Assembly: GCF_004363655.1 (NCBI RefSeq)
Contig: NZ_SNZH01000005.1
Span: 248,750 to 312,749, forward strand
Reading direction: 5' to 3'
DNA: 64,000 nucleotides
From: Tahibacter aquaticus
GTDB lineage: Bacteria > Pseudomonadota > Gammaproteobacteria > Xanthomonadales > Rhodanobacteraceae
Shown: piece after piece, positions 54,151 through 64,000 of the stretch
How the letters are laid out: each line of letters begins with the position of its first letter
Numbering within the stretch: the stretch's first letter is position 1
Notes under the pieces: generated by a model
What the model was told of the DNA's origin: nothing
The model's input: only the letters and a program-made list of their open reading frames with translations
The model's database searches: none
Made by a program: the position numbers and the translations under genes

Positions 54151-54450
54151 TCAGGCGCTGTCGATCTTCCTGAGCCGCATCGCCCCCAGCGGCACCAGCT
54201 GGCAGGCCAGTCGTGCCTTGGCATTGCCCGGCGCATAGATGTCCAGCGCTTCGATCTCCTCGGCCGACGGTGGCTCGGCCACGTCCCCCTCGCCTTCCAC
54301 TTCGATCAGGCACGTGCCGCACAAGCCGCTGCGGCAGCCGAACAGCAACGGCGAATTCTGCACTGTGAGGTGCAGCGGCAGGCAAGCGCGCGCCGGCAGT
54401 TCCTGCGCCGCGAAGCGCGTGCCGGGAAACTCGATGCGGACCGTGCTCAT
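54151..54450 (-). CDS. Plant-type 2Fe-2S ferredoxin
   Basis: 99 residues. Cluster ligands are CRSGLCGTC (C-x4-C-x2-C) and a fourth Cys in RLACQL. It would pass single electrons to an oxygenase. Its ATG at 54450 overlaps the stop of the AurF-like gene in ATGA, so it is the likely electron donor of that enzyme or of the membrane hydroxylase further upstream. Confidence 0.9.
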   Translation of the reverse strand: MSTVRIEFPGTRFAAQELPARACLPLHLTVQNSPLLFGCRSGLCGTCLIEVEGEGDVAEPPSAEEIEALDIYAPGNAKARLACQLVPLGAMRLRKIDSA

Positions 54451-55631
54451 GCCGGCTGGAAGCGTTTCAGCGCGGCGCGATTGCGCTGCAGATAGCGTTC
54501 GGCGCCATGCCGGCGCATATGCCGCATATCGCGGTTGGCCGCGTCCAGCCAGGCTACCGGCTCGACGAAGGCAGCATACGAATCGGCGGCTGTGCCGTGC
54601 GTCTGCAAGGCCGCATGCAGGCCAGCGGATTCCTGGCCGAAGCAGGCATGCAGCATGGCCACGGCTTCGCCCTGCTGCATGCCGAACACCTTGGACCTGA
54701 ACAATTTGTACAAGGTTGCATAGGTCGACGGGTCGTACCAGAAAATGCCGTTGACCACGACCGAGGCGTTGGCATGGTCGTCCTGGCAACCGGTCACGGC
54801 ACGGTTGACCACCCAGCGTTCGAACGCGCCGGGCGCGGCGATGGAGCGCGGCACTTCCAGGCCGACCACGCGCGAGGTATTGAAATGGAAGGATTCGTCC
54901 ATGAAATGGTAATAGCTGATGCGCGAGGGGATCGGCGCATTGTCCTTGTCCGCATGATCGAGGTAGTGACGCGACAGCTGGTGCTGGATCAGCTTGCCGT
55001 TGAGCGTGCGCAGGCCACGGATCAGCAGGTACTGGCTGGCCAGGAAGGCGTTGCTGGACGACATCAGCATGAATCCGCGTATCTGCAGCCGGCGCCAGAA
55101 ATTGCGCGCTGCCGTGGTATCGGCGTAGATCATGGTGTGGTCGAACAGGCTGCGCATGGGATAGGTGAACAGGCGCTCGCCGAACAGCTCGAACTCGACC
55201 GTTTCGCTGATTTTCTTGAATGCGTGGATATGCGCGCGCTCCTGGCGCGATTCCAGGTCGAGGTTGTCGCAGACCAGGCGGAAATCCTCCAGCGCGTAGA
55301 GGCCGGCGGCGGAAACCTGGTTGAGGAAAATCGTTGCGATCTCGGCCGAAACGATCTGCGCGTAGTAGGCCACCCAGTACAGCTGGTTCAGCACGACGCG
55401 CTGGGCCGCGCTGGCCTGGTCCCATAGCGGCGTGCCCCAGAGCAGGGAATGATTTTCCGGATTCCAGTACTCGTTGCGGCAGTCCGCGTAGACGAACTGC
55501 GCGGCCGCAGAATCGATCGCGTCGGTGTGGTCCTGCTCGCTGTTGCGCTTGAGGTTGAACTCCAGCTTGCGCACGGTGGACGCATCGTCGAGCAGGGACA
55601 GGGTTTGGTGCTGGGCTAGGCCGCTATGCAT
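54447..55631 (-). CDS. AurF-like diiron oxygenase
   Basis: 394 residues, mostly helical. The carboxylate/His pattern of the p-aminobenzoate N-oxygenase (AurF) family is largely present: E97 (SAEIATIF), E131-x2-H134 (QERAHIHAF) and H242-x3-E246-x2-H249 (YHFMDESFHF), with spacing close to AurF. The Glu expected about 27 residues before H242 is not apparent. AurF-type enzymes oxidise amines or hydroxylate beta-carbons. It is followed by its ferredoxin and preceded 3 bases away by a fatty-acid hydroxylase. Confidence 0.8.
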   Translation of the reverse strand: MHSGLAQHQTLSLLDDASTVRKLEFNLKRNSEQDHTDAIDSAAAQFVYADCRNEYWNPENHSLLWGTPLWDQASAAQRVVLNQLYWVAYYAQIVSAEIATIFLNQVSAAGLYALEDFRLVCDNLDLESRQERAHIHAFKKISETVEFELFGERLFTYPMRSLFDHTMIYADTTAARNFWRRLQIRGFMLMSSSNAFLASQYLLIRGLRTLNGKLIQHQLSRHYLDHADKDNAPIPSRISYYHFMDESFHFNTSRVVGLEVPRSIAAPGAFERWVVNRAVTGCQDDHANASVVVNGIFWYDPSTYATLYKLFRSKVFGMQQGEAVAMLHACFGQESAGLHAALQTHGTAADSYAAFVEPVAWLDAANRDMRHMRRHGAERYLQRNRAALKRFQPA

Positions 55632-55634
55632 GGT

Positions 55635-56354
55635 TCACCAGGGAAACAGGAATTGGCGCCAGGCGCCGGGCGCCGCGTTCAGGCCGTAGCGGCGCGGATA
55701 GGCACTCGCCTCGCGCGCGGTACCGAAACAGCGGTCCCACAGCATAAGGTTGGCGCCGTAGTTGCTGCCTGCGCCTTCCGGGCTGTGATGCAGATGATGG
55801 TGCCAGGGCGTGACCAGCAGCCGGCCCAGGCCGGCAGACACCGGCAGGCGCGAATGCCGCCACAGGTCGAGCGCGGCGGTCAGCCCGGCAGCGACGAAGA
55901 AACCATCGGGCGCATCGCAGAGAAAGCCGAGCAGTGGATTGAGCAACAGGTAGACAAACAGGAAATTGATCGCCAGCGCATTGCGCGAGGTGGCCCAGAC
56001 ATCGACCGTCGGCGAGGCATGATGGCAGCGGTGCATGGCCCAGAGAAACGGCACGCGATGGAACAGGCGGTGCTGCCAGTAGTAGAGAAAATCCACCACC
56101 ACGAAATTCAGCAGGAAGGCGCCGAACCAGCCCAGCGGCAGCACGCCCGCCAGGCCGGGCAGATGCTCGGCGAGCACGCGCGTGGCGATGAAGAAACCGG
56201 CCAGCGGCACCAGCACGCCCTGCACGGCCAGGCCAGCCAGGTTGAGCAGCCAGTCGGACCGTGCGTAGCGCAGTGCCGCCGGATCGCGCCGCCGCCGTTC
56301 CAGCCACGCCAGCAGCACGAAGGCGATCAGCGGCAGATACCAGCCCTGGTGCAT
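55635..56354 (-). CDS. Sterol desaturase/fatty acid hydroxylase-family membrane protein
   Basis: 239 residues with four to five membrane segments and the His clusters that bind the diiron centre: HRLFH, HRCHH and HHHLHH. The family hydroxylates or desaturates lipid chains. It starts 154 bases from the divergent DUF4440 gene and heads the minus-strand operon with the AurF-like oxygenase and ferredoxin. Confidence 0.9.
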   Translation of the reverse strand: MHQGWYLPLIAFVLLAWLERRRRDPAALRYARSDWLLNLAGLAVQGVLVPLAGFFIATRVLAEHLPGLAGVLPLGWFGAFLLNFVVVDFLYYWQHRLFHRVPFLWAMHRCHHASPTVDVWATSRNALAINFLFVYLLLNPLLGFLCDAPDGFFVAAGLTAALDLWRHSRLPVSAGLGRLLVTPWHHHLHHSPEGAGSNYGANLMLWDRCFGTAREASAYPRRYGLNAAPGAWRQFLFPW

Positions 56355-56508
56355 GCAATTAACGCCTCGATAACGTACGGCTGACGGCAATTGCCCGTAG
56401 TCGCCGCAGCATAGCGGCGCCGCGCGCGCCGGTGCAATCGGCGCCGATTGGGCAAGGCTGGAGCGAACAGGTATCCTCGCGCCATCTGGGACTGGGGAAT
56501 CGGCACGC

Positions 56509-57129
56509 ATGAAACGGATCGCGGCAACGGTGTGGACAGTAGTGCTGCTGGTGTGCAGCGGCGTGGCTTTTGCGCAGACCGCGCCAGCGGCGCGCGAAGC
56601 CGATCACGAGGCCTTGCGCGGCCTGATGCGCACGGCCAGCGAAGCGGTGAATACGCGCAAGTTCGACCTGCTGACGCCGCAACTGCACGCGGGCTTTACC
56701 GTGATTGCGGTGGACAATACCAAGCTGGTCGGCATCGAAGCGTTCCGCAGCTATTGGAACAAACTGTTCGACGGTGCCGATGCACCGCTGCTGTCGGTGG
56801 AAACCAAGCCGGCGGCGGACGAACTGACATTCTTCCTCGACGACAATGTCGGCGTGGTCTACGGCACCTCGCAGGACACCTACACCTTCCGCAAGAACGC
56901 CGTCTTCAAGCAGGGCGAGCAGCGCAGCATGACGACGCGCTGGAGCGCGGCCGTCGTCAAGGAAGGCGACAGCTGGAAACTGGTGAATGTGCATTTTTCC
57001 GCCAATCCCTTCGACAATCCGATGCTGCAGGCCGCCGCCGACACGGGCAAGCGCATGGCCGTACTGGCCGGCGTAGGCGGACTGCTGCTCGGTCTGCTGC
57101 TGATGGCCCTGCTGCGCCGGCGCCGCTGA
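56509..57129 (+). CDS. DUF4440/SnoaL-like protein with signal and C-terminal anchor
   Basis: 206 residues. Signal peptide (IAATVWTVVLLVCSGVAFAQ), an NTF2-like fold (EALRGLMRTASEAVNTRKFD; AAVVKEGDSWKLVNVHFS), then a C-terminal membrane helix (MAVLAGVGGLLLGLLLMALL) ended by Arg-rich residues. It should be held in the inner membrane with the domain in the periplasm. The NTF2-like family includes binding and isomerase proteins; no reaction can be assigned. First gene of the plus-strand operon. Confidence 0.8.
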   Translation: MKRIAATVWTVVLLVCSGVAFAQTAPAAREADHEALRGLMRTASEAVNTRKFDLLTPQLHAGFTVIAVDNTKLVGIEAFRSYWNKLFDGADAPLLSVETKPAADELTFFLDDNVGVVYGTSQDTYTFRKNAVFKQGEQRSMTTRWSAAVVKEGDSWKLVNVHFSANPFDNPMLQAAADTGKRMAVLAGVGGLLLGLLLMALLRRRR

Positions 57130-57152
57130 AACCCGGCGAACCTGGCTAGCTT

Positions 57153-59267
57153 ATGTACGATCTGCTGCTGCAAGGCGGCACGGTGTTCGATGGCAGCGGC
57201 GCTCCCGGGCGCCGCTGCGACATCGCCATTGCCGGCGGCCGCATTGCGGCGATGGCCGGGCAACTGGACGGACCCGCGCGGGAATGCCGCGACGTCTCCG
57301 GCCTGTGGCTGCTGCCGGGCCTGGTCGATATCCACACCCACTACGATGTAGAAGTGGAAATTGCGCCTGGCCTGGCCGAATCGGTGCGCCACGGCGTGAC
57401 CACGGTGGTCATGGGCAATTGCAGTCTTTCGCTGACTGCAGGCCGCGCCGAGGATCTGGCCGATATCTTCCTGCGCGTGGAAAGCCTGCCCGCCGAACTG
57501 GTGCGGCGCTGGCTGAGCCAGGCCGTTTCGTGGACAACGCCGGCCGATTACCTCGCCCATCTGGGCCAGCTCAAGCTTGGTCCCAACGTAGCGCCGCTGC
57601 TTGGCCACAGCGCCGTGCGGGTCGCCGTGATGGGGCTGGAGCGCGCACTGCGCGATACCGCCAGCGACAGCGAACTGCAGCAGATGCGCACGCTCGCACT
57701 GAGCGCGCTGCAAGCCGGCTGCTGCGGCATTTCCATCGACATGGTGCATTGGCACAAGGTCAGCGGTATCTACGCCGGCCGCTCGGTGCCTTCGCACTAC
57801 GCCGACCTGCGCGAATACCGCATGCTGGCCGCGCTCTGCCGCGAACGCGATGCGGTATTCCAGGTCACGCCCAACCCGCAGAAGCCGAGTTCCTTCCTGC
57901 GCATTCTCGCCATGGGCATGGGCCTGTTCCGCCCGCCGCTGCGCCTGACCGTGCTGTCGGCCATGGACATGAGCGACCACCCGGGCCTGTGGCGCGCGTT
58001 TCCGCTGGCGGCCTGGCTGGTCAATCGCGTGTTCGGCGGCAATCTGCGTTTCCAGGCACTGGGCGAGGCTTTCGTCATTCGCGGCGACGGTCCGCTGACG
58101 CCGTTCTTCGAGGAATTCCCCAGCGGCGTTGAACTCAACAGCGCCGCCGATGCAGCGGCGCGGCGTGCGCTCTGGGCCGATACGGCATTCCGCACGCGCT
58201 TCCGCCGCGACTGGCAGCGCCGCGGCCTGCGCACCTTCCATCGCGATCCGGCACGCATGCAGGTGCTGGCCTCGCCCGACCCGGCCCATGTCGGCCTGAG
58301 CATCGGCGAGATCGCGCGCCGGCGCGGCCACGATGCCACCGCCACGCTGATGGATCTGCTGGCCGAATACGATACCGCGCTGTGCTGGCAGGCCTGCAGC
58401 GCGAACGAGCGGCCCGGCGTGCTGCGCAAGCTGCTGGCACATGCGCATATCCTGCCGGGTTTTTCCGATGCCGGTGCACATTCGCGCAATATCGCTTTTT
58501 TCGACAGTGCGCTGAACCTGCTGCGCGAGGCCGCCATCAGCGGCTTCATGCCAATGGAAAAAGCCGTTGCCCGGGTCAGCGGCGAGGCAGCGCAGTGGTT
58601 CAATATCGACGCGGGCCGCCTGCGCGCCGGCGCACGGGCCGACCTGCTGCTGTTGCGGCCGCAGGCCCTGGCACAGCCCAGCCGCGTGACGGAAGTGGCC
58701 GACGCCTTGCTGCAGGGGGCGCCACGCCTGGTGCGCCGCGACGATGCCGCCGCGGTCGCCGCCGTGTTTATCGGCGGCGAGCAGGTAGTACGCGACGGCG
58801 AACCGCTGCCCCTGCTGGCAAGCCGCACGCTCGGCCAGGTGCTGTCGCCGCAACGCGTGCCGGCCGATGCCGCCGCCGCATTGGCACGCCATCGCAATCG
58901 CCTGGACGACGCCACGCTGGATCATCCGTTCCGCGACTACTGGGATATCTTCGTCTACAAGCACCAGGCGCGCGGCAATATCGCCCTGCACTGCCTCGGC
59001 GTGCTGCTGATGCACGGCAGCGTGGTGGCTGCCCTGCTCAGCGGGAATGCCTGGTGGCTGCTTGGCATCCCGCTGTCGCAAGCCAGCGGCCTGCTCGGCC
59101 ATCTGCTGTACGAACGCTCGCACGTGGACATGCGCGACCTGGTCTTTTCCTGGCGCGCGTCGCGTTGCCTCAATCGCCTGTTCGTGACGGTACTGCGCGG
59201 CCGCTATGCGCTCGAAGTACGCCGCGTGCGCGCGCTGTATGCGCAATTCCTGGCGGCGCAGTCCTGA
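57153..59267 (+). CDS. N-acyl-amino-acid deacylase fused to an Mpo1/DUF962-like domain
   Basis: 704 residues. The first about 550 are a D-aminoacylase-type amidohydrolase: DIHTHYD (H61, H63), metal Cys in VVMGNCSLS, and the catalytic Asp in GFSDAGAHS (near 439). Residues about 592-690 match DUF962/Mpo1: FRDYWDIFVYKHQARGNI, LHCLG, SGNAWWLLGIPL and GHLLYERSH, keeping the conserved His residues. Mpo1 is a Fe(II) dioxygenase of 2-hydroxy fatty acids in yeast. The fusion suggests release of an acyl chain and its alpha-oxidation, or coupling of the two. It shares a base with the next gene. Confidence 0.88.
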   Translation: MYDLLLQGGTVFDGSGAPGRRCDIAIAGGRIAAMAGQLDGPARECRDVSGLWLLPGLVDIHTHYDVEVEIAPGLAESVRHGVTTVVMGNCSLSLTAGRAEDLADIFLRVESLPAELVRRWLSQAVSWTTPADYLAHLGQLKLGPNVAPLLGHSAVRVAVMGLERALRDTASDSELQQMRTLALSALQAGCCGISIDMVHWHKVSGIYAGRSVPSHYADLREYRMLAALCRERDAVFQVTPNPQKPSSFLRILAMGMGLFRPPLRLTVLSAMDMSDHPGLWRAFPLAAWLVNRVFGGNLRFQALGEAFVIRGDGPLTPFFEEFPSGVELNSAADAAARRALWADTAFRTRFRRDWQRRGLRTFHRDPARMQVLASPDPAHVGLSIGEIARRRGHDATATLMDLLAEYDTALCWQACSANERPGVLRKLLAHAHILPGFSDAGAHSRNIAFFDSALNLLREAAISGFMPMEKAVARVSGEAAQWFNIDAGRLRAGARADLLLLRPQALAQPSRVTEVADALLQGAPRLVRRDDAAAVAAVFIGGEQVVRDGEPLPLLASRTLGQVLSPQRVPADAAAALARHRNRLDDATLDHPFRDYWDIFVYKHQARGNIALHCLGVLLMHGSVVAALLSGNAWWLLGIPLSQASGLLGHLLYERSHVDMRDLVFSWRASRCLNRLFVTVLRGRYALEVRRVRALYAQFLAAQS

Positions 59268-59866
59268 TGCAGCTGCCGGCGATCCGCGCAGGCCGCATCG
59301 GCCTGGCCCTGCTGCTCGGCTATCTGCTGTTCTGCCTGCTCTATCTGGGCAGCCACGCCTTGCGGCTGCAGCCGCCGGTAGCCTTGCAGCGCGGCAGCAT
59401 CGATGCGGCGATTCCCTTGCTGGACTGGTCGATCTGGATCTACCTGTCGCAGTTCCTGCTGCTGCCGCTGGCCATCGTCAAGGCGCGCGACGATGCCGAC
59501 CGTAGCCGCGTGTTCTACGCCTGCCTGCTCGCCACGCTGATCGCGGCCAGCGTATTCCTGATATGGCCTACCCAGCTGCAGCGCCCGGCTCAGCCGACAA
59601 CCGGGCTTACCGGCCTGGCCTGGGCACTGCTGTTCGCCCGCGACGTGGACGGCAACTGCTTTCCTTCGCTGCACGTGGCGCTGGCCACGCTATCGGGCCT
59701 GGCCCTGTGGCGGCGCGGCTGGCGCCTGCTGGCCTGCAGCTGGCCGGCGCTGATCGCCGTGGCCACGCTGACGACCAAACAACACGTGGTATGGGATACG
59801 CTAGCCGGCACGGCACTGGCTGTCCTCGCCTGGATCCTGACTCCCCGGCTTTTCCGCTATGACTGA
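59267..59866 (+). CDS. PAP2/inositolphosphoceramide synthase-like membrane protein
   Basis: 199 residues with about six membrane helices. PAP2 catalytic motifs: CFPSLHVALAT (C2) and TLTTKQHVVWDTLAG (C3), in the form found in AUR1/Ipt1-like PAP2_3 proteins. IPLLDWSIWIYLSQFLLLPL matches the family N-terminal part. Such enzymes move a phospho-head group onto or off a lipid. Start ATG 59267 overlaps the preceding stop (TGATG). Confidence 0.85.
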   Translation: MQLPAIRAGRIGLALLLGYLLFCLLYLGSHALRLQPPVALQRGSIDAAIPLLDWSIWIYLSQFLLLPLAIVKARDDADRSRVFYACLLATLIAASVFLIWPTQLQRPAQPTTGLTGLAWALLFARDVDGNCFPSLHVALATLSGLALWRRGWRLLACSWPALIAVATLTTKQHVVWDTLAGTALAVLAWILTPRLFRYD

Positions 59867-60629
59867 TGCCGCCGCGCCGATCCGCGCCCGCCTGATCGAA
59901 CATGCCGACATCACCGCGCTGCAGCGCGCAGAAATGTTCGCGCTGTACCGGCGCCATTTCGACGCCACCGATCGGGCACGCTTCAACGCCGACCTGGACG
60001 ACAAGCAGCTGGTGCTGGAAGTGCGCGACGACAGTGGCACGCTGCGCGGTTTTTCCACCGTTGCCTGCTACCGGCGCGAATTCGACGGTGTGCCGCTGCG
60101 CGTGCTGTTCTCCGGCGATACCGTAGTCGACGAAGGCAGCTGGGGCCAGCAGGCACTGGCCTTCGGCTTTATCCGCCTGGCTGCGCAGGTGCGGCAGGAA
60201 TCGGCCGAACCGCTGTACTGGCTGCTGATTTCCAAGGGCCACCGCACCTTCCGTTATCTGCCCACCTTCAGCCTCGACTACGATCCGTCGCCGCAACATG
60301 CGACACCGCCAGGCCGCCAGCGGCTGATGGATTTTCTCGCCCGCGACCGTTTTGGCGACGCCTACGATGCGCAGCGCGGTGTGATCCGTCATGCGGATTC
60401 GCACGGCCACCTGCGCGCCGACCTGGCCAGCGTGCCGCCTATCCACGCGCATCTGGCGGAAGTCACGTTCTTCCTCGAACGCAACCCGGGCTATGCCCGT
60501 GGCGAGGAACTGGTGTGCCTGTGCCGCATCGAGGCAGACAACCTGCGCCCGCTGGCGAGGCGCCTGTTCCTGTCCGCCCAGCGCGAAGCGCGGGATAGCG
60601 AATCGCCGCAACGGGCAGCGCAGGCATGA
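59859..60629 (+). CDS. GNAT-fold acyltransferase-like protein
   Basis: 256 residues, starting 8 bases before the end of the PAP2 gene. The N-terminal half (MFALYRRHFD; KQLVLEVRDDSGTLRGFST; VLFSGDTVVDEGSWGQQ) looks like a GNAT fold with an altered acetyl-CoA loop. The second half is less clear. No pathway-specific assignment can be made; in context an acyltransferase step on a lipid or amine is likely. Confidence 0.6.
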   Translation: MTDAAAPIRARLIEHADITALQRAEMFALYRRHFDATDRARFNADLDDKQLVLEVRDDSGTLRGFSTVACYRREFDGVPLRVLFSGDTVVDEGSWGQQALAFGFIRLAAQVRQESAEPLYWLLISKGHRTFRYLPTFSLDYDPSPQHATPPGRQRLMDFLARDRFGDAYDAQRGVIRHADSHGHLRADLASVPPIHAHLAEVTFFLERNPGYARGEELVCLCRIEADNLRPLARRLFLSAQREARDSESPQRAAQA

Positions 60630-61672
60630 GCGAGGCGCTGTTCAATCATCGCGAAGCCATAGCCGAAGGCTGGTACTGGCTGTGCGCCTCGCGGCAGATC
60701 CGCCGCGGCCAGGTGAAGGCGCTGCGCCTGCTCGGCCGCGACCTGGCCGTCTACCGCGGCGACGATGGCGAGCTGGTTGCGCTGGACGCGTATTGCGCGC
60801 ATATGGGCGCGCACCTGGCCGAAGGCCGCGTCGAGGGAAATAAACTCCGCTGCTTTTTCCACCATTGGCGCTATACCGCCGATGGCCGCTGCGACGATAT
60901 TCCCTGCCAGCCTGGCACGCCACCCGCCCGTGCCCAGGTGAAACGCTGGCCGGCCGCCGAGCGCTACGGCCTGGTCTGGATCTGGACCGGCACACATGCC
61001 GCCCACGCCGTACCCGAAGTACCCGAGCTGGCCGGCCTGCGCTGCCGCACGCTGCAGGTCAACCGCTTCCGCAAGAACTGCCATCCCAACGTGATGCTGA
61101 TCAACGCCATCGACGAGCAGCACTTCCGCAGCGTACACGGCCTGCCCGGCTCCATCCTGAGCATGCAGGCGCTGCCGCGCGACCGCGCGCATATCGAATT
61201 CCACAACAGCGGGCGCGTGCCGGCGACGCACTGGCTGGGACGCCTGCTCGGCCGCTGCTACCGCGATGCGCTGACCTACAAGCTCAGCTACTGGCACGGC
61301 AGCACCGGCTTCGTCACGCTGGGACCGGATTTCCTGCATTTCCACCTGATGTTCGCCCTGCACCGCGGCGACGACGGCGAAACCCAGGGCCAGGCCGTGG
61401 CAATCACACGCCGGCGCAGCGGCATCGCCGGCTGGCTGTTCGACCACGCCGTGCTGGCGCTGACGGCAGCCGTCGGCTGGTATTTCGCCCGCGGCGATAC
61501 GCGCGTATTCCAGAGCATTCGCTTCGACCTGCGCACGCCGATTGCCGCAGACAAGGCGGTACTCGCCTTCATGCGCCATCTCGACCAGCAGCCACGCGCC
61601 GACTGGGCCGAGCCGGCAGCGCATTCCACCCACCGGCGGCATCTGCATCGCGTAGGCGGCAAGCACGCATGA
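60626..61672 (+). CDS. Rieske non-heme iron oxygenase
   Basis: 348 residues. Rieske cluster: C57-A-H59 and C76-F-F-H79. The mononuclear iron site is in INAIDEQHFRSVHG (D163, H166, H171). The C-terminal part differs from aromatic-ring dioxygenases and has a hydrophobic helix (VLALTAAVGWYFA). These enzymes hydroxylate, demethylate, desaturate or N-oxidise substrates using a ferredoxin. ATGA overlaps join it to both neighbours. Confidence 0.9.
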   Translation: MSEALFNHREAIAEGWYWLCASRQIRRGQVKALRLLGRDLAVYRGDDGELVALDAYCAHMGAHLAEGRVEGNKLRCFFHHWRYTADGRCDDIPCQPGTPPARAQVKRWPAAERYGLVWIWTGTHAAHAVPEVPELAGLRCRTLQVNRFRKNCHPNVMLINAIDEQHFRSVHGLPGSILSMQALPRDRAHIEFHNSGRVPATHWLGRLLGRCYRDALTYKLSYWHGSTGFVTLGPDFLHFHLMFALHRGDDGETQGQAVAITRRRSGIAGWLFDHAVLALTAAVGWYFARGDTRVFQSIRFDLRTPIAADKAVLAFMRHLDQQPRADWAEPAAHSTHRRHLHRVGGKHA

Positions 61673-62508
61673 AACGCAAGGTTCTGATCACCGGCTGTTC
61701 CTCCGGCCTGGGCCTGGCCCTGGCGCGACAGCTGTCGCAGGACGGCTGGCAGGTACTGGCTGCGGTGCGCGACATCGCCCAGCGTCCGGCCGGCCTGCCC
61801 GACATCGAATTCCTGCCGCTGGACCTGGCCGACAGCGGCGCCATCGCACGCCTGGCGGCGCAGATCGACGAACTGGACTGCCTGGTCAACAACGCCGGCT
61901 ACGGCCTGGTCGGGCCGTTCTCCAGTTATACCTTGCATCAGATGCAGCATCAGCTACAGGTGAACTTCCTCGGCCCAGCCCAGTTGACCCAGGCCCTGCT
62001 GCCAGCCCTGCGCCGGCGCCAGGGGCGCGTCATCGTGCTGTCGTCGCTGTCGGGCGAAACCGGCCTGCCACTCAATTCGCTGTACTGCGCCAGCAAGTTT
62101 GCGCTGGAAGGCTGGGCCGAGTCGCTGGCCCACGAACTGCCGGCACAAGGCCTGCAGATAGCCCTGGTCGAACCCGGCGGCCGGCGCACGCGCTTTGCCG
62201 CCAACCTGCGCTGGGGCGAACAGACGCAGCAGCTTGCTGCGACGGAACAAGCGCAGCTGCGCGGCTATCGCGCCCTGCTGGCGCGCCTGCTGGCGCGGCC
62301 GGGCAAGGACGAGGGCGCCGTGATCGCGGCCATCGCCAGCCTGCTGCAGCGTGCACAGATGCCGCTGCGTACCCGCGTCGGCAGCGACGCGCAGAGCCTG
62401 CACTGGCTCAAGCGCCTGCTGCCGGAACGGCTGGCCCAGCGCCTGCTGGCAAGGCAATTCCGCACATTGCTGGCGGCCCCGGCCGACCGCAGCGAACCGC
62501 CCGCATGA
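61669..62508 (+). CDS. Short-chain dehydrogenase/reductase
   Basis: 279 residues from ATG 61669. Rossmann motif TGCSSGLG, NNAGYG, catalytic Ser (LSSLSGETG) and YCASK. The form resembles the 3-ketosphinganine reductase/17-beta-HSD-like SDRs acting on lipids. Starts and ends with ATGA overlaps. Confidence 0.9.
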   Translation: MKRKVLITGCSSGLGLALARQLSQDGWQVLAAVRDIAQRPAGLPDIEFLPLDLADSGAIARLAAQIDELDCLVNNAGYGLVGPFSSYTLHQMQHQLQVNFLGPAQLTQALLPALRRRQGRVIVLSSLSGETGLPLNSLYCASKFALEGWAESLAHELPAQGLQIALVEPGGRRTRFAANLRWGEQTQQLAATEQAQLRGYRALLARLLARPGKDEGAVIAAIASLLQRAQMPLRTRVGSDAQSLHWLKRLLPERLAQRLLARQFRTLLAAPADRSEPPA

Positions 62509-63389
62509 GCAGCTACGGCGACGGTCTGAACAAGGCCAGCGCGCGCCTGCTGCGCCGCCGCGCCGCCGCAGCCACGCCGCAGGGCGATGGCGCACTGTGG
62601 CCAGCGCAGCGCTTCGGCCTGGAACACGTCGACGCCTACGTCGCCGCACCGGAAGCTCTGCAGCGCCGCGTGCTCGACCACTGCAGCCTCGGCCTGCTGC
62701 GCGAATCCTGGCTGGTCGAACGCGGCGGCATGGAATTCTGCGCGCGCATGGTGCTGCTCAGCGACGATGCGCAGCAGCGCACGCTGTACAGCCTGATCGG
62801 CGCCGACGAGGCCAGCCACTACGCCTGGCTGCAGCCCTGGCTGCAGCAGACCGGCGATACGCTGGACCCGTTCAACGCTTTTATCGCCGACTGCCTGCGC
62901 GAAGCCACGCCGCAGCCACTGGCCTATCTGATGCAGGTGGTGCTGGAAGGATTCGGCATTGTCCACTATGCCGGCCTGGCCGCCGACTGCAGCGATGCTG
63001 CCCTGGCGGCGACGCTGCAGCGCATGGCCGAGGACGAGGCCTTGCACCACGCCGCCGGCCTGGCCGTGTTCGACCGCCGGCGCCTGAACGAACGCGAGCG
63101 CGGTTTCCTGCTTGATGCATCGTATACATTCCTCCAGATGATACGCAGCGGGCCGCAGGCTGTCGTCGCGGCGCTGGACGCGGCACTGGACGGCATCGAC
63201 GCGACAGCCATCGCCGGCGTGTTCGAAGCACTGGATGCCGCGGCGCAGACTGCGTCCAAGCTGGCACGCCTGCGCCAGCTGATGGCGCAGCCGGGCATGC
63301 ACTGGCTGGTCGATGCACTCGACGCACGCAATGCCTTCACGCCTGCCGCAACCGCCGAGGCGGCGCAGATCTACCGCTCGCTGCGCTGA
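62505..63389 (+). CDS. Ferritin-like diiron protein
   Basis: 294 residues, all-helical. The ligand pattern of a ferritin-like diiron centre is present: an early Glu (around 67-77), E102-x2-H105 (ADEASHYA), E148 (VVLEGFGIV) and E178-x2-H181 (AEDEALHHAA). It could be an oxygenase, oxidase or aldehyde-forming enzyme; I recognise no specific subfamily. Last gene of the plus-strand operon; its 3' end overlaps the GH3 gene of the opposite strand by 19 bases. Confidence 0.78.
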   Translation: MSSYGDGLNKASARLLRRRAAAATPQGDGALWPAQRFGLEHVDAYVAAPEALQRRVLDHCSLGLLRESWLVERGGMEFCARMVLLSDDAQQRTLYSLIGADEASHYAWLQPWLQQTGDTLDPFNAFIADCLREATPQPLAYLMQVVLEGFGIVHYAGLAADCSDAALAATLQRMAEDEALHHAAGLAVFDRRRLNERERGFLLDASYTFLQMIRSGPQAVVAALDAALDGIDATAIAGVFEALDAAAQTASKLARLRQLMAQPGMHWLVDALDARNAFTPAATAEAAQIYRSLR

Positions 63390-64000
63390 TCGCGCTGCAA
63401 GGCCGCGTGCAGGCGTTGCGCCTGCGACAGATCGGTCAGCAGGCTGCGGTCCTTGATGTCGCCCCAGGACATGCCCAGGCCCAGCCAGTGCGCCTGCACG
63501 CGTTCGCGCAGGTTGCGCGCCGCAAATACCTGCACCGGCGCCAGCTGTCCCAGTGCGCGTGCTTCCGCATAGCGCAGGGATTGCCGCAAGGCCTGGTCGA
63601 GGCGATCGGCCAGCATGCCGCTGTCGGCCACATCGGTCAGGCAGAGATAGAACGGCCGTCCCTGTTCCGGCTGCAGCGGCAGCAAGCTCGCAAAACCGGC
63701 CGCGGCGCAGACCTCGGCGAGTACTGTCGCGACAAATGCCTCGTCCAGCTTTTCGCCCACCAGGTCGGCTACGGCGTCGGCGCGCCCGATGAATTCCAGC
63801 AGTGGCACGTCGAGATAACGCCCGCCGACACGCACGCGGTCGCCCAGGCGGTAGCGCAGCAGGCCACCGGCCTGGGTCAGCAGCAGGGCGTACTCGCCGC
63901 CGTCATCGAGTTCGTGCAGCAGGCGGCAGTCGCCATCGGCTGTTTCGAATTCCAGGAACACTTCGTCGAGCAAGGGCACGCAGCCGCCGGCCGCGCACAA
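63371..64000 (-). CDS. GH3-like acyl amide synthetase, N-terminal part outside the window
   Basis: The last about 209 residues of an adenylate-forming GH3 protein. RYRLGDRVRVGGRYLDVP and FIGRADAVADLVGEKL are signature motifs of the family C-terminal half. GH3 proteins join amino acids to carboxylic acids by an acyl-adenylate. The start lies beyond base 64000. It faces the plus-strand operon and is probably part of the same pathway. Confidence 0.85.
   Translation of the reverse strand: MCAAGGCVPLLDEVFLEFETADGDCRLLHELDDGGEYALLLTQAGGLLRYRLGDRVRVGGRYLDVPLLEFIGRADAVADLVGEKLDEAFVATVLAEVCAAAGFASLLPLQPEQGRPFYLCLTDVADSGMLADRLDQALRQSLRYAEARALGQLAPVQVFAARNLRERVQAHWLGLGMSWGDIKDRSLLTDLSQAQRLHAALQRDQRSER

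Follow-up and report, generated by a model that had tools for sequence, protein, structure and literature searches.

A unit of 13 genes, designated A to M, was recognized at one end of a 64,000-nucleotide stretch of the Tahibacter aquaticus genome (the window; part of contig C5, NZ_SNZH01000005.1, in a genome of 7.27 megabases). It spans positions 54151-66521 (coordinates of the window extended past its end) and was delimited from open reading frames (ORFs) and Pfam matches. The core genes constitute one inherited set and retain the catalytic residues expected of them; in every genome checked, the CylC-family diiron protein (B), the marker of the cluster, is accompanied by a GH3 amide synthetase (K). 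We somewhat favor the view that the unit is biosynthetic and makes an amide-linked, multiply oxidized fatty acyl product, either a specialized lipid or a lipoamide. The window cluster is a new proteobacterial version of an unsolved pathway whose cyanobacterial form has been published without a product.

Genes A (ferredoxin), B and C (membrane hydroxylase) lie on the minus strand, D to J diverge from them on the plus strand, and K, L and M face the latter on the minus strand. The original prediction, made from the letters of the window alone, had described two divergent operons and a facing GH3 gene, and all of these are open and recognizable at 54151-63389 onward. The four kinds of iron or diiron protein that it had brought together (membrane hydroxylase, AurF-like, Rieske and ferritin-like) each have Pfam or fold evidence; the ferredoxin, the deacylase–Mpo1 fusion, the PAP2 protein, the short-chain dehydrogenase/reductase (SDR) and the amide synthetase were likewise recovered by Pfam, and the GNAT by a fold match. 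It had also called for extension beyond 64000, and there K runs to 64894 and is followed by a hexapeptide acyltransferase (L) and a second Rieske oxygenase (M), which bring the unit to 13 genes. Its remark that nearly all genes overlap was generous, most junctions (8 of 12) doing so: by 4 base pairs (bp) at A/B, G/H, H/I, I/J and L/M, by 8 bp at F/G, by 1 bp at E/F and by 19 bp at the convergent J/K junction. Gaps were present instead at B/C (3 bp), C/D (154 bp), D/E (23 bp) and K/L (2 bp); the length of the divergent C/D region follows from the start of C, which is probably at 56354.

All 13 genes were found in a genus mate (G001) with order and orientation kept and 66.5 to 83.3% identity, and in a second one (G006) genes A to J kept both, with K on another contig. 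None of five flanking window genes tested was matched beside the cluster in either genome, which sets the cluster borders at A and M. There was no sign of foreign base composition (GC content of 67.2% in the cluster, 66.5% to its left and 64.8% to its right) and no second copy of the cluster middle in the window genome, where the other matches to a probe of 2 kilobases (kb) spanned 24 to 79 bases.

A search for the co-occurring set in other genomes, suggested with the original prediction, revealed largely the same set beside B in 59 loci. A collection with one genome per species was scanned with two peptide patterns from the B alignment; 412 pattern matches were obtained, 59 of which encode a B relative, in 59 loci. 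Most of the loci were cyanobacterial, the others belonging to Melainabacteria, Accumulibacter, four Bacteriovoracales, Myxococcales, Planctomycetota and other proteobacteria. Since the two short patterns came from three closely related sequences, distant clusters escape the scan, and little can be read from absence in a group. Within approximately 10 kb of B, the core was represented by A, H and J (52 of 59 loci each), C and G (50 each), M (48), K and L (38 each), and a third group of Rieske proteins, not present in the window, was found in 42; E was found in 21, I in 15, D in 10 and F in 7, and of these D, E and F are accessory genes. An overlap filter underlies these counts, in which some genes, such as D and L in L018, are lacking. 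No further gene family recurred in at least 10 of the 59 loci. Cyanobacterial loci have A, C, G, H and J as well as K, L and M next to B.

Of the 36 loci of at least 21 kb, 35 contained A and C, 34 contained G, H and J, 33 contained M, 30 a member of the third Rieske group, 29 K and 28 L. In most loci with enough sequence the core genes thus stayed near B; a split into unlinked loci in relatives was the outcome that the original prediction had named as evidence against itself. Because largely the same set recurs in other phyla, the cluster is more than a chance grouping. A few loci held little but B, among them L031 (B and one Rieske gene) and the 3.5-kb L034 (B alone); where loci were split, the genes still co-occurred in the genomes checked. 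Thus, K was present in the genomes of all nine B-bearing loci asked, L031 and L034 included, seven of which lack K in the flank near B. Among eight genomes of the window genus, B was found in three and K in the same three, and K in none of the five without B. No other B was detected among 119 relatives searched, and a class-wide search returned B from the window genome only (1 of 369), which has a single B match.

The association was also examined in 100 genomes of one cyanobacterial order, a sample centered on a known positive (G491) and including another one (G487). B was matched at E <1e-180 in 20 genomes, and six others held only CylC-type relatives (1e-30 to 1e-86). K and M were matched at E <1e-150 in the same 20 genomes and in none of the 80 others (Fisher p 1.9e-21, kinship ignored), a result that rests on the strong match class, since weaker GH3 and Rieske homologs are common. 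The next best matches outside the 20 (1e-119 for K, 1e-88 for M) came from three genomes with sister clusters. G was found in 20 of the 20 B-positive and 4 of the 80 B-negative genomes, and J in 19 and 4, respectively.

The genes are not always neighbors in these genomes. In G527 they are dispersed on one contig: B, J, H and G stand together with a fatty acid desaturase gene near priA and GGDEF-EAL genes (44 bp separate the end of the desaturase ORF from the GNAT ORF downstream of it, both on one strand), M lies with A elsewhere, and K at yet another place. From the priA arrangement we infer that G527 is a Synechocystis; its B-J-H-G block fits the 'PriA-containing' form, which is described for Synechocystis only in the available text of Eusebio et al. 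(2021, PMC8406957; here and below, cited papers stand for those parts of their text that were available). In G487, a distance of 135 kb separates K from M, and other contigs carry B, G and J. Genes that are jointly present without being neighbors point to a shared function.

The sister clusters resemble the window set, differing from it by the lack of a B match. In G528 (L121) a GNAT (65% identical to a cluster GNAT), a Rieske (38%) and a GH3 gene (34%) lie together, in G550 the same three do so by coordinates, and in G505 (L125, L126) GNAT, GH3 and desaturase genes are joined, with the Rieske gene on another contig. The G528 region (G528:C42:271000-290000) also contains genes for a UDP-glycosyltransferase, a fatty acid desaturase and an NQR2/RnfD + FG-GAP + UnbV-domain protein nearby. 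Another genome, G520, has cluster-type GNAT and ferritin-like genes side by side (G520:C1:1405787-1407493) without B or K and with weak Rieske matches only (best 2.7e-28), perhaps a remnant or a sub-module.

By its motifs, B belongs with the CylC/NocO dimetal halogenases and not with N-oxygenases. It carries ExxQExxH (E127, Q130, E131, H134) and HxxDExxH (H242, D245, E246, H249), the motifs used for annotating dimetal-carboxylate halogenases (PMC12871659), and E97, Q130-E131-xx-H134 and H242-xx-D245-E246-xx-H249 were kept in all 59 aligned rows (the window protein, 57 of the 59 loci, L019 and L065 having been dropped at ORF picking, and L011, which is the same gene as L018). In NocO, nine residues are essential for chlorination and are conserved in 241 further homologs (PMC12101540). 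Eight of them were present in 59 of 59 B rows, and together with both motifs they make it a serious possibility, if somewhat short of an even one, that B is a true halogenase and that chlorine enters the product or a cryptic intermediate; this proposal overlaps with the favored one and does not exclude it. The ninth residue sets B apart. Replacement of E252 by alanine abolishes chlorination by NocO (PMC12101540), and the corresponding position is Gln216 in 59 of 59 B rows, as placed by spacing (27 residues before the first His of HxxDExxH) and by alignment with CylC-type homologs, not by alignment to NocO. All ten full-length comparators of the CylC type, which were drawn from the 100-genome cyanobacterial sample and classified by homology and motif, have Glu at this spacing; Gln is found in the B proteins of G527 and G568 too. 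A wider proposal, which we consider rather doubtful, is that the whole B clade is a diiron enzyme with undescribed non-halogenase C–H chemistry marked by the Glu-to-Gln change and that, in addition, the pathway makes one undescribed class of oxidized lipid amide common to cyanobacteria (the Synechocystis-like genome included), Bacteriovoracales, Accumulibacter and Tahibacter.

The label 'AurF-like' of the original prediction agrees with the fold as judged by TM-score, and by motif it is corrected to CylC-type. The B model (predicted local distance difference test score, pLDDT, of 92) gave its best TM-scores (template modeling scores) among the listed PDB matches with CmlI (0.58 by target, probability 1.00, rank 3) and AurF (0.53, rank 5); no match reached E 0.001, and the top two by E-value were stearoyl-acyl carrier protein desaturases with poor TM-scores of 0.26 to 0.28. 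Matches to the AurF profile were weak but frequent (0.014 for the window protein; E<=0.01 in 37 of 45 aligned rows, best 7.4e-7). An AurF-like N-oxygenase, yielding a nitro, hydroxamate or N-oxide product, is nevertheless very unlikely: the position of AurF Asp135, adjacent to the ligand Glu, is Gln130 in 59 of 59 rows, the very change that sets CylC-type proteins apart, and the plain N-oxygenase was rejected on this ground. Sequence searches with B returned nothing from the PDB at E<=1 and nothing from NCBIfam. In a tree of 45 B proteins two sides were distinguished, one of 10 rows (Tahibacter, Accumulibacter, alpha- and gammaproteobacterial and Melainabacterial) and one of 35 (cyanobacteria, Bacteriovoracales, one planctomycete and one gammaproteobacterium).

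Table 1. Features of the 13-gene unit (window positions; for L and M, positions in the extended coordinates)
Feature	Description	Position	Strand	Basis
A	plant-type [2Fe-2S] ferredoxin, 99 amino acids	54151..54450	-	Fer2 3.6e-7
B	CylC-family diiron protein, 394 amino acids; cluster marker	54447..55631	-	motifs, fold model
C	membrane fatty-acid-hydroxylase superfamily, 239 amino acids from likely start	55635..56354	-	FA_hydroxylase 4.4e-26
C/D	divergent intergenic region, 154 bp; presumed site of both promoters	56355..56508	.	layout
D	SnoaL-like protein, 206 amino acids; accessory	56509..57129	+	SnoaL_3 7.1e-7
E	N-acyl-deacylase-type amidohydrolase + Mpo1-like fusion, 704 amino acids; accessory	57153..59267	+	Amidohydro_3 1.8e-12, Mpo1-like 1.9e-6
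F	PAP2_3 membrane phosphatase/phosphotransferase, 199 amino acids; accessory	59267..59866	+	PAP2_3 3.6e-12
G	GNAT-fold acyltransferase without family model, 256 amino acids; core	59859..60629	+	fold search
H	Rieske oxygenase 1, 348 amino acids; core	60626..61672	+	Rieske 1.2e-24
I	short-chain dehydrogenase, 279 amino acids	61669..62508	+	adh_short 1.5e-38
J	ferritin-like diiron protein, 294 amino acids; core	62505..63389	+	Ferritin_2 2e-5
K	GH3 acyl-acid amido synthetase, 507 amino acids	63371..64894 (window ends 64000)	-	GH3 1.2e-22
L	hexapeptide-repeat acyltransferase	64897-65511	-	Hexapep 3.7e-6, 26.8 bits, just below the 27-bit cut-off
M	Rieske oxygenase 2	65508-66521	-	Rieske 2.3e-22, VanA_C 4.5e-9

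The residues expected for catalysis or metal binding were kept across the other families as well (Table 1). Cys39, 44, 47 and 83 of A were found in at least 90% of 48 rows, and A is the probable electron donor to the cluster oxygenases. Nine His of C were present in 49 of 49 rows; S134, H136, H173 and D177 of F in at least 90% of 6 rows; C57, H59, C76 and H79 together with D163, H166, H171 and D309 of H in at least 92% of its 49-row ortholog group; and E67, E72, E102, H105, E148, H154, E178 and H181 of J in 51 of 51 rows. In a PDB sequence search with J the best matches were designed diiron bundles, the rest being likely chance matches. G had no match in Pfam; a PDB search with its predicted fold (pLDDT 91.5) recovered GNAT enzymes, at best with E 4.6e-6 and TM-scores of 0.37 (by query) and 0.50 (by target). 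K retains the T-S-G-S stretch at 102-105, and its nearest relatives in the PDB are JAR1 and other GH3 amide synthetases. The two domains of E are encoded by two separate genes in Nostoc loci, e.g., L052, and this supports a shared role of both.

The Rieske proteins, of which only those of 300 to 420 amino acids entered the tree, split into three main groups of 49, 42 and 41 rows, the window H and M belonging to the first two; six rows fell outside the groups at a finer cut, and five of them merge with the second group when the cut is coarser. For the M group (L006:14258-15271), the nearest solved structures by sequence were SxtDIOX and SxtT (E 1.3e-27 and 2.4e-25).

The presence of K, the desaturase gene beside the cluster genes in G527 and the two core acyltransferases suggest a fatty acyl amide in which B, C, H, J and M oxidize several positions. 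The substrates of characterized CylC homologs are fatty acyl compounds (PMC8406957, PMC12101540). With ferredoxin A as its electron source, B would functionalize a C–H bond of a free fatty acid or a simple derivative, either chlorinating it like CylC/NocO or hydroxylating or desaturating it; the latter reactions come into consideration because B has Gln where NocO needs Glu252. Further oxygen would be introduced by the two Rieske oxygenases (H and M), the membrane hydroxylase C and the ferritin-like J. K would activate the acid with adenosine triphosphate (ATP) and join it to an amino acid or amine; since K belongs to the ATP-using acyl-acid amide synthetases and keeps the T-S-G-S stretch, a carrier protein might be dispensable for the activation of a free acid. 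G and L may add acyl or acetyl groups, and I may adjust a keto or hydroxy group. In the Tahibacter type D, E and F would decorate or trim the product, E trimming or removing the amide, with a possible shortening of 2-hydroxyacyl chains by its Mpo1 domain, and F moving a phospho-headgroup. The order of the steps, the head group and the reaction of B are the putative parts of this scheme.

Several observations weigh against a pathway to an oxidized fatty acyl amide. Besides Gln216 of B, no carrier protein or acyl-AMP ligase was matched by Pfam among the 13 genes, unlike in fatty-acyl CylC clusters. The substrates of GH3 enzymes are not readable from sequence, and K scored only 51.7 bits against the NCBIfam cut-off of 620 for OlsH, a fatty acid-using member of the family. 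At relaxed thresholds K was matched in 49 of the 100 cyanobacterial genomes (E<=1e-6) and M in 83 (E<=1e-20), and a stop codon lies within some of the matches (K in G506, B in G499, J in 7 of 23 genomes). Nothing found in print assigns a product, substrate or activity to a gene of the unit; no title or abstract in the literature searched, which covered few subscription papers, names a product of the cluster, and the literature on Tahibacter aminolipids yielded only the description of a species from another genus.

Rieske oxygenases and amidohydrolases are frequent in catabolism, and the unit might break down or detoxify a lipid amide or an aromatic amide rather than make one. We regard this as a slim chance: the core has an ATP-using amide synthetase and two acyltransferases, the deacylase is accessory, and the list of recurrent families ends with those described above.

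The lipid reading of the original prediction was retained in part. One unit of oxygenases and acyl- and amide-forming or -cleaving enzymes with an oxidized, amide-linked, lipid-like product is still the better view of the cluster, but the phospho-headgroup and the likeness to sphingolipids lean on the PAP2 gene (F) and the deacylase–Mpo1 gene (E), which are accessory, with 7 and 21 of 59 loci. A sphingolipid-like membrane lipid, i.e., a sphingoid base or ceramide analogue with a phospho-headgroup from F, is suggested by the resemblance of the PAP2_3, Mpo1-like and fatty-acid-hydroxylase domains to sphingolipid enzymes, by the match of I to KdsR (3-ketodihydrosphingosine reductase; 149 bits against a 400-bit cut-off and below five general SDR models) and by three alpha-oxoamine synthase matches in each of the three Tahibacter genomes. 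No serine palmitoyltransferase was found by Pfam among the 13 genes, as the original prediction had noted for the part in its view. Among 15 cluster-bearing genomes, seven had one alpha-oxoamine synthase match, seven had two or three and one had none; none passed the TIGR01825 cut-off, a model that does not single out serine palmitoyltransferase. These counts make a sphingoid base unlikely as the common substrate, although it may serve as one in Tahibacter with its three matches per genome, and together with the accessory standing of E and F they led us to reject a sphingolipid cluster as the principal explanation; overall we consider it improbable.

Sterol or hopanoid modification was considered on account of Rieske enzymes like SdmA or KshA and the likeness of C to a sterol oxidase. 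Among NCBIfam models, both H and M scored highest with SdmA (82 and 72 bits, respectively; the cut-off is 600), and for H the nearest solved structure by sequence was KshA. Squalene-hopene cyclase passed its cut-off in only 3 of the 15 cluster-bearing genomes, all three cyanobacterial, so that hopanoids are excluded as the common substrate, and this kind of modification seems hardly credible.

Among the closest known counterparts of the unit are the cyanobacterial 'Rieske-containing' clusters of CylC homologs, an orphan class with no known product (Eusebio et al. 2021, PMC8406957). These have mostly a single CylC homolog, two to four Rieske proteins and mostly a sterol-desaturase-family protein, and deltaproteobacterial and Melainabacterial relatives were noted for them (PMC8406957). 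The window likewise has a single CylC-family protein, two Rieske proteins (H and M) and the hydroxylase C, and it shares its gene set with the cyanobacterial loci found here, which were not matched to the clusters drawn in the supplements of that paper. It differs in being gammaproteobacterial and in adding the SnoaL protein, the deacylase–Mpo1 fusion and PAP2, and the constant presence of the ATP-using GH3 synthetase is a further difference from the published description in its available form. The original prediction knew of no described pathway with this set; the function is indeed unsolved, but the cyanobacterial clusters were already in print. Since these relatives are a published orphan class, the kind of cluster is known and its function is not.

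With the CylC/NocO halogenases B shares the AurF-like fold, both motifs and eight of the nine essential residues; the unit differs from them by Gln216 of B and by its lack of a carrier protein or acyl-AMP ligase. OlsH of the OlsH/OlsI ornithine-lipid pathway is an ATP-dependent, GH3-type N-acyl-ornithine synthetase that acts on fatty acids (PMC12493201). K, also a GH3-type amide synthetase, is weakly nearest to it, but its score led us to reject it as an OlsH ortholog; moreover, no alpha/beta-hydrolase is present among the 13 genes, and the available text on OlsH/OlsI mentions no oxygenase partners (PMC12493201).

To the published class our data add a proteobacterial variant together with its accessory genes, the constancy of the GH3 partner, the division of the Rieske proteins into three groups and the change from Glu to Gln that splits B from CylC-type proteins (not compared with the supplements of the cited papers). 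The unit combines five predicted iron oxygenases or diiron proteins, is kept across several phyla and occurs in 20 of the 100 genomes sampled from one cyanobacterial order. With the core set defined, amide synthetase included, and carried by cultured cyanobacteria such as Calothrix sp. PCC 7103 (L050), the proposed pathway is directly testable. One residue separates B from a proven halogenase. Annotation by the two motifs (PMC12871659) would label the whole B clade as halogenases; if B is not one, many such annotations would be wrong.

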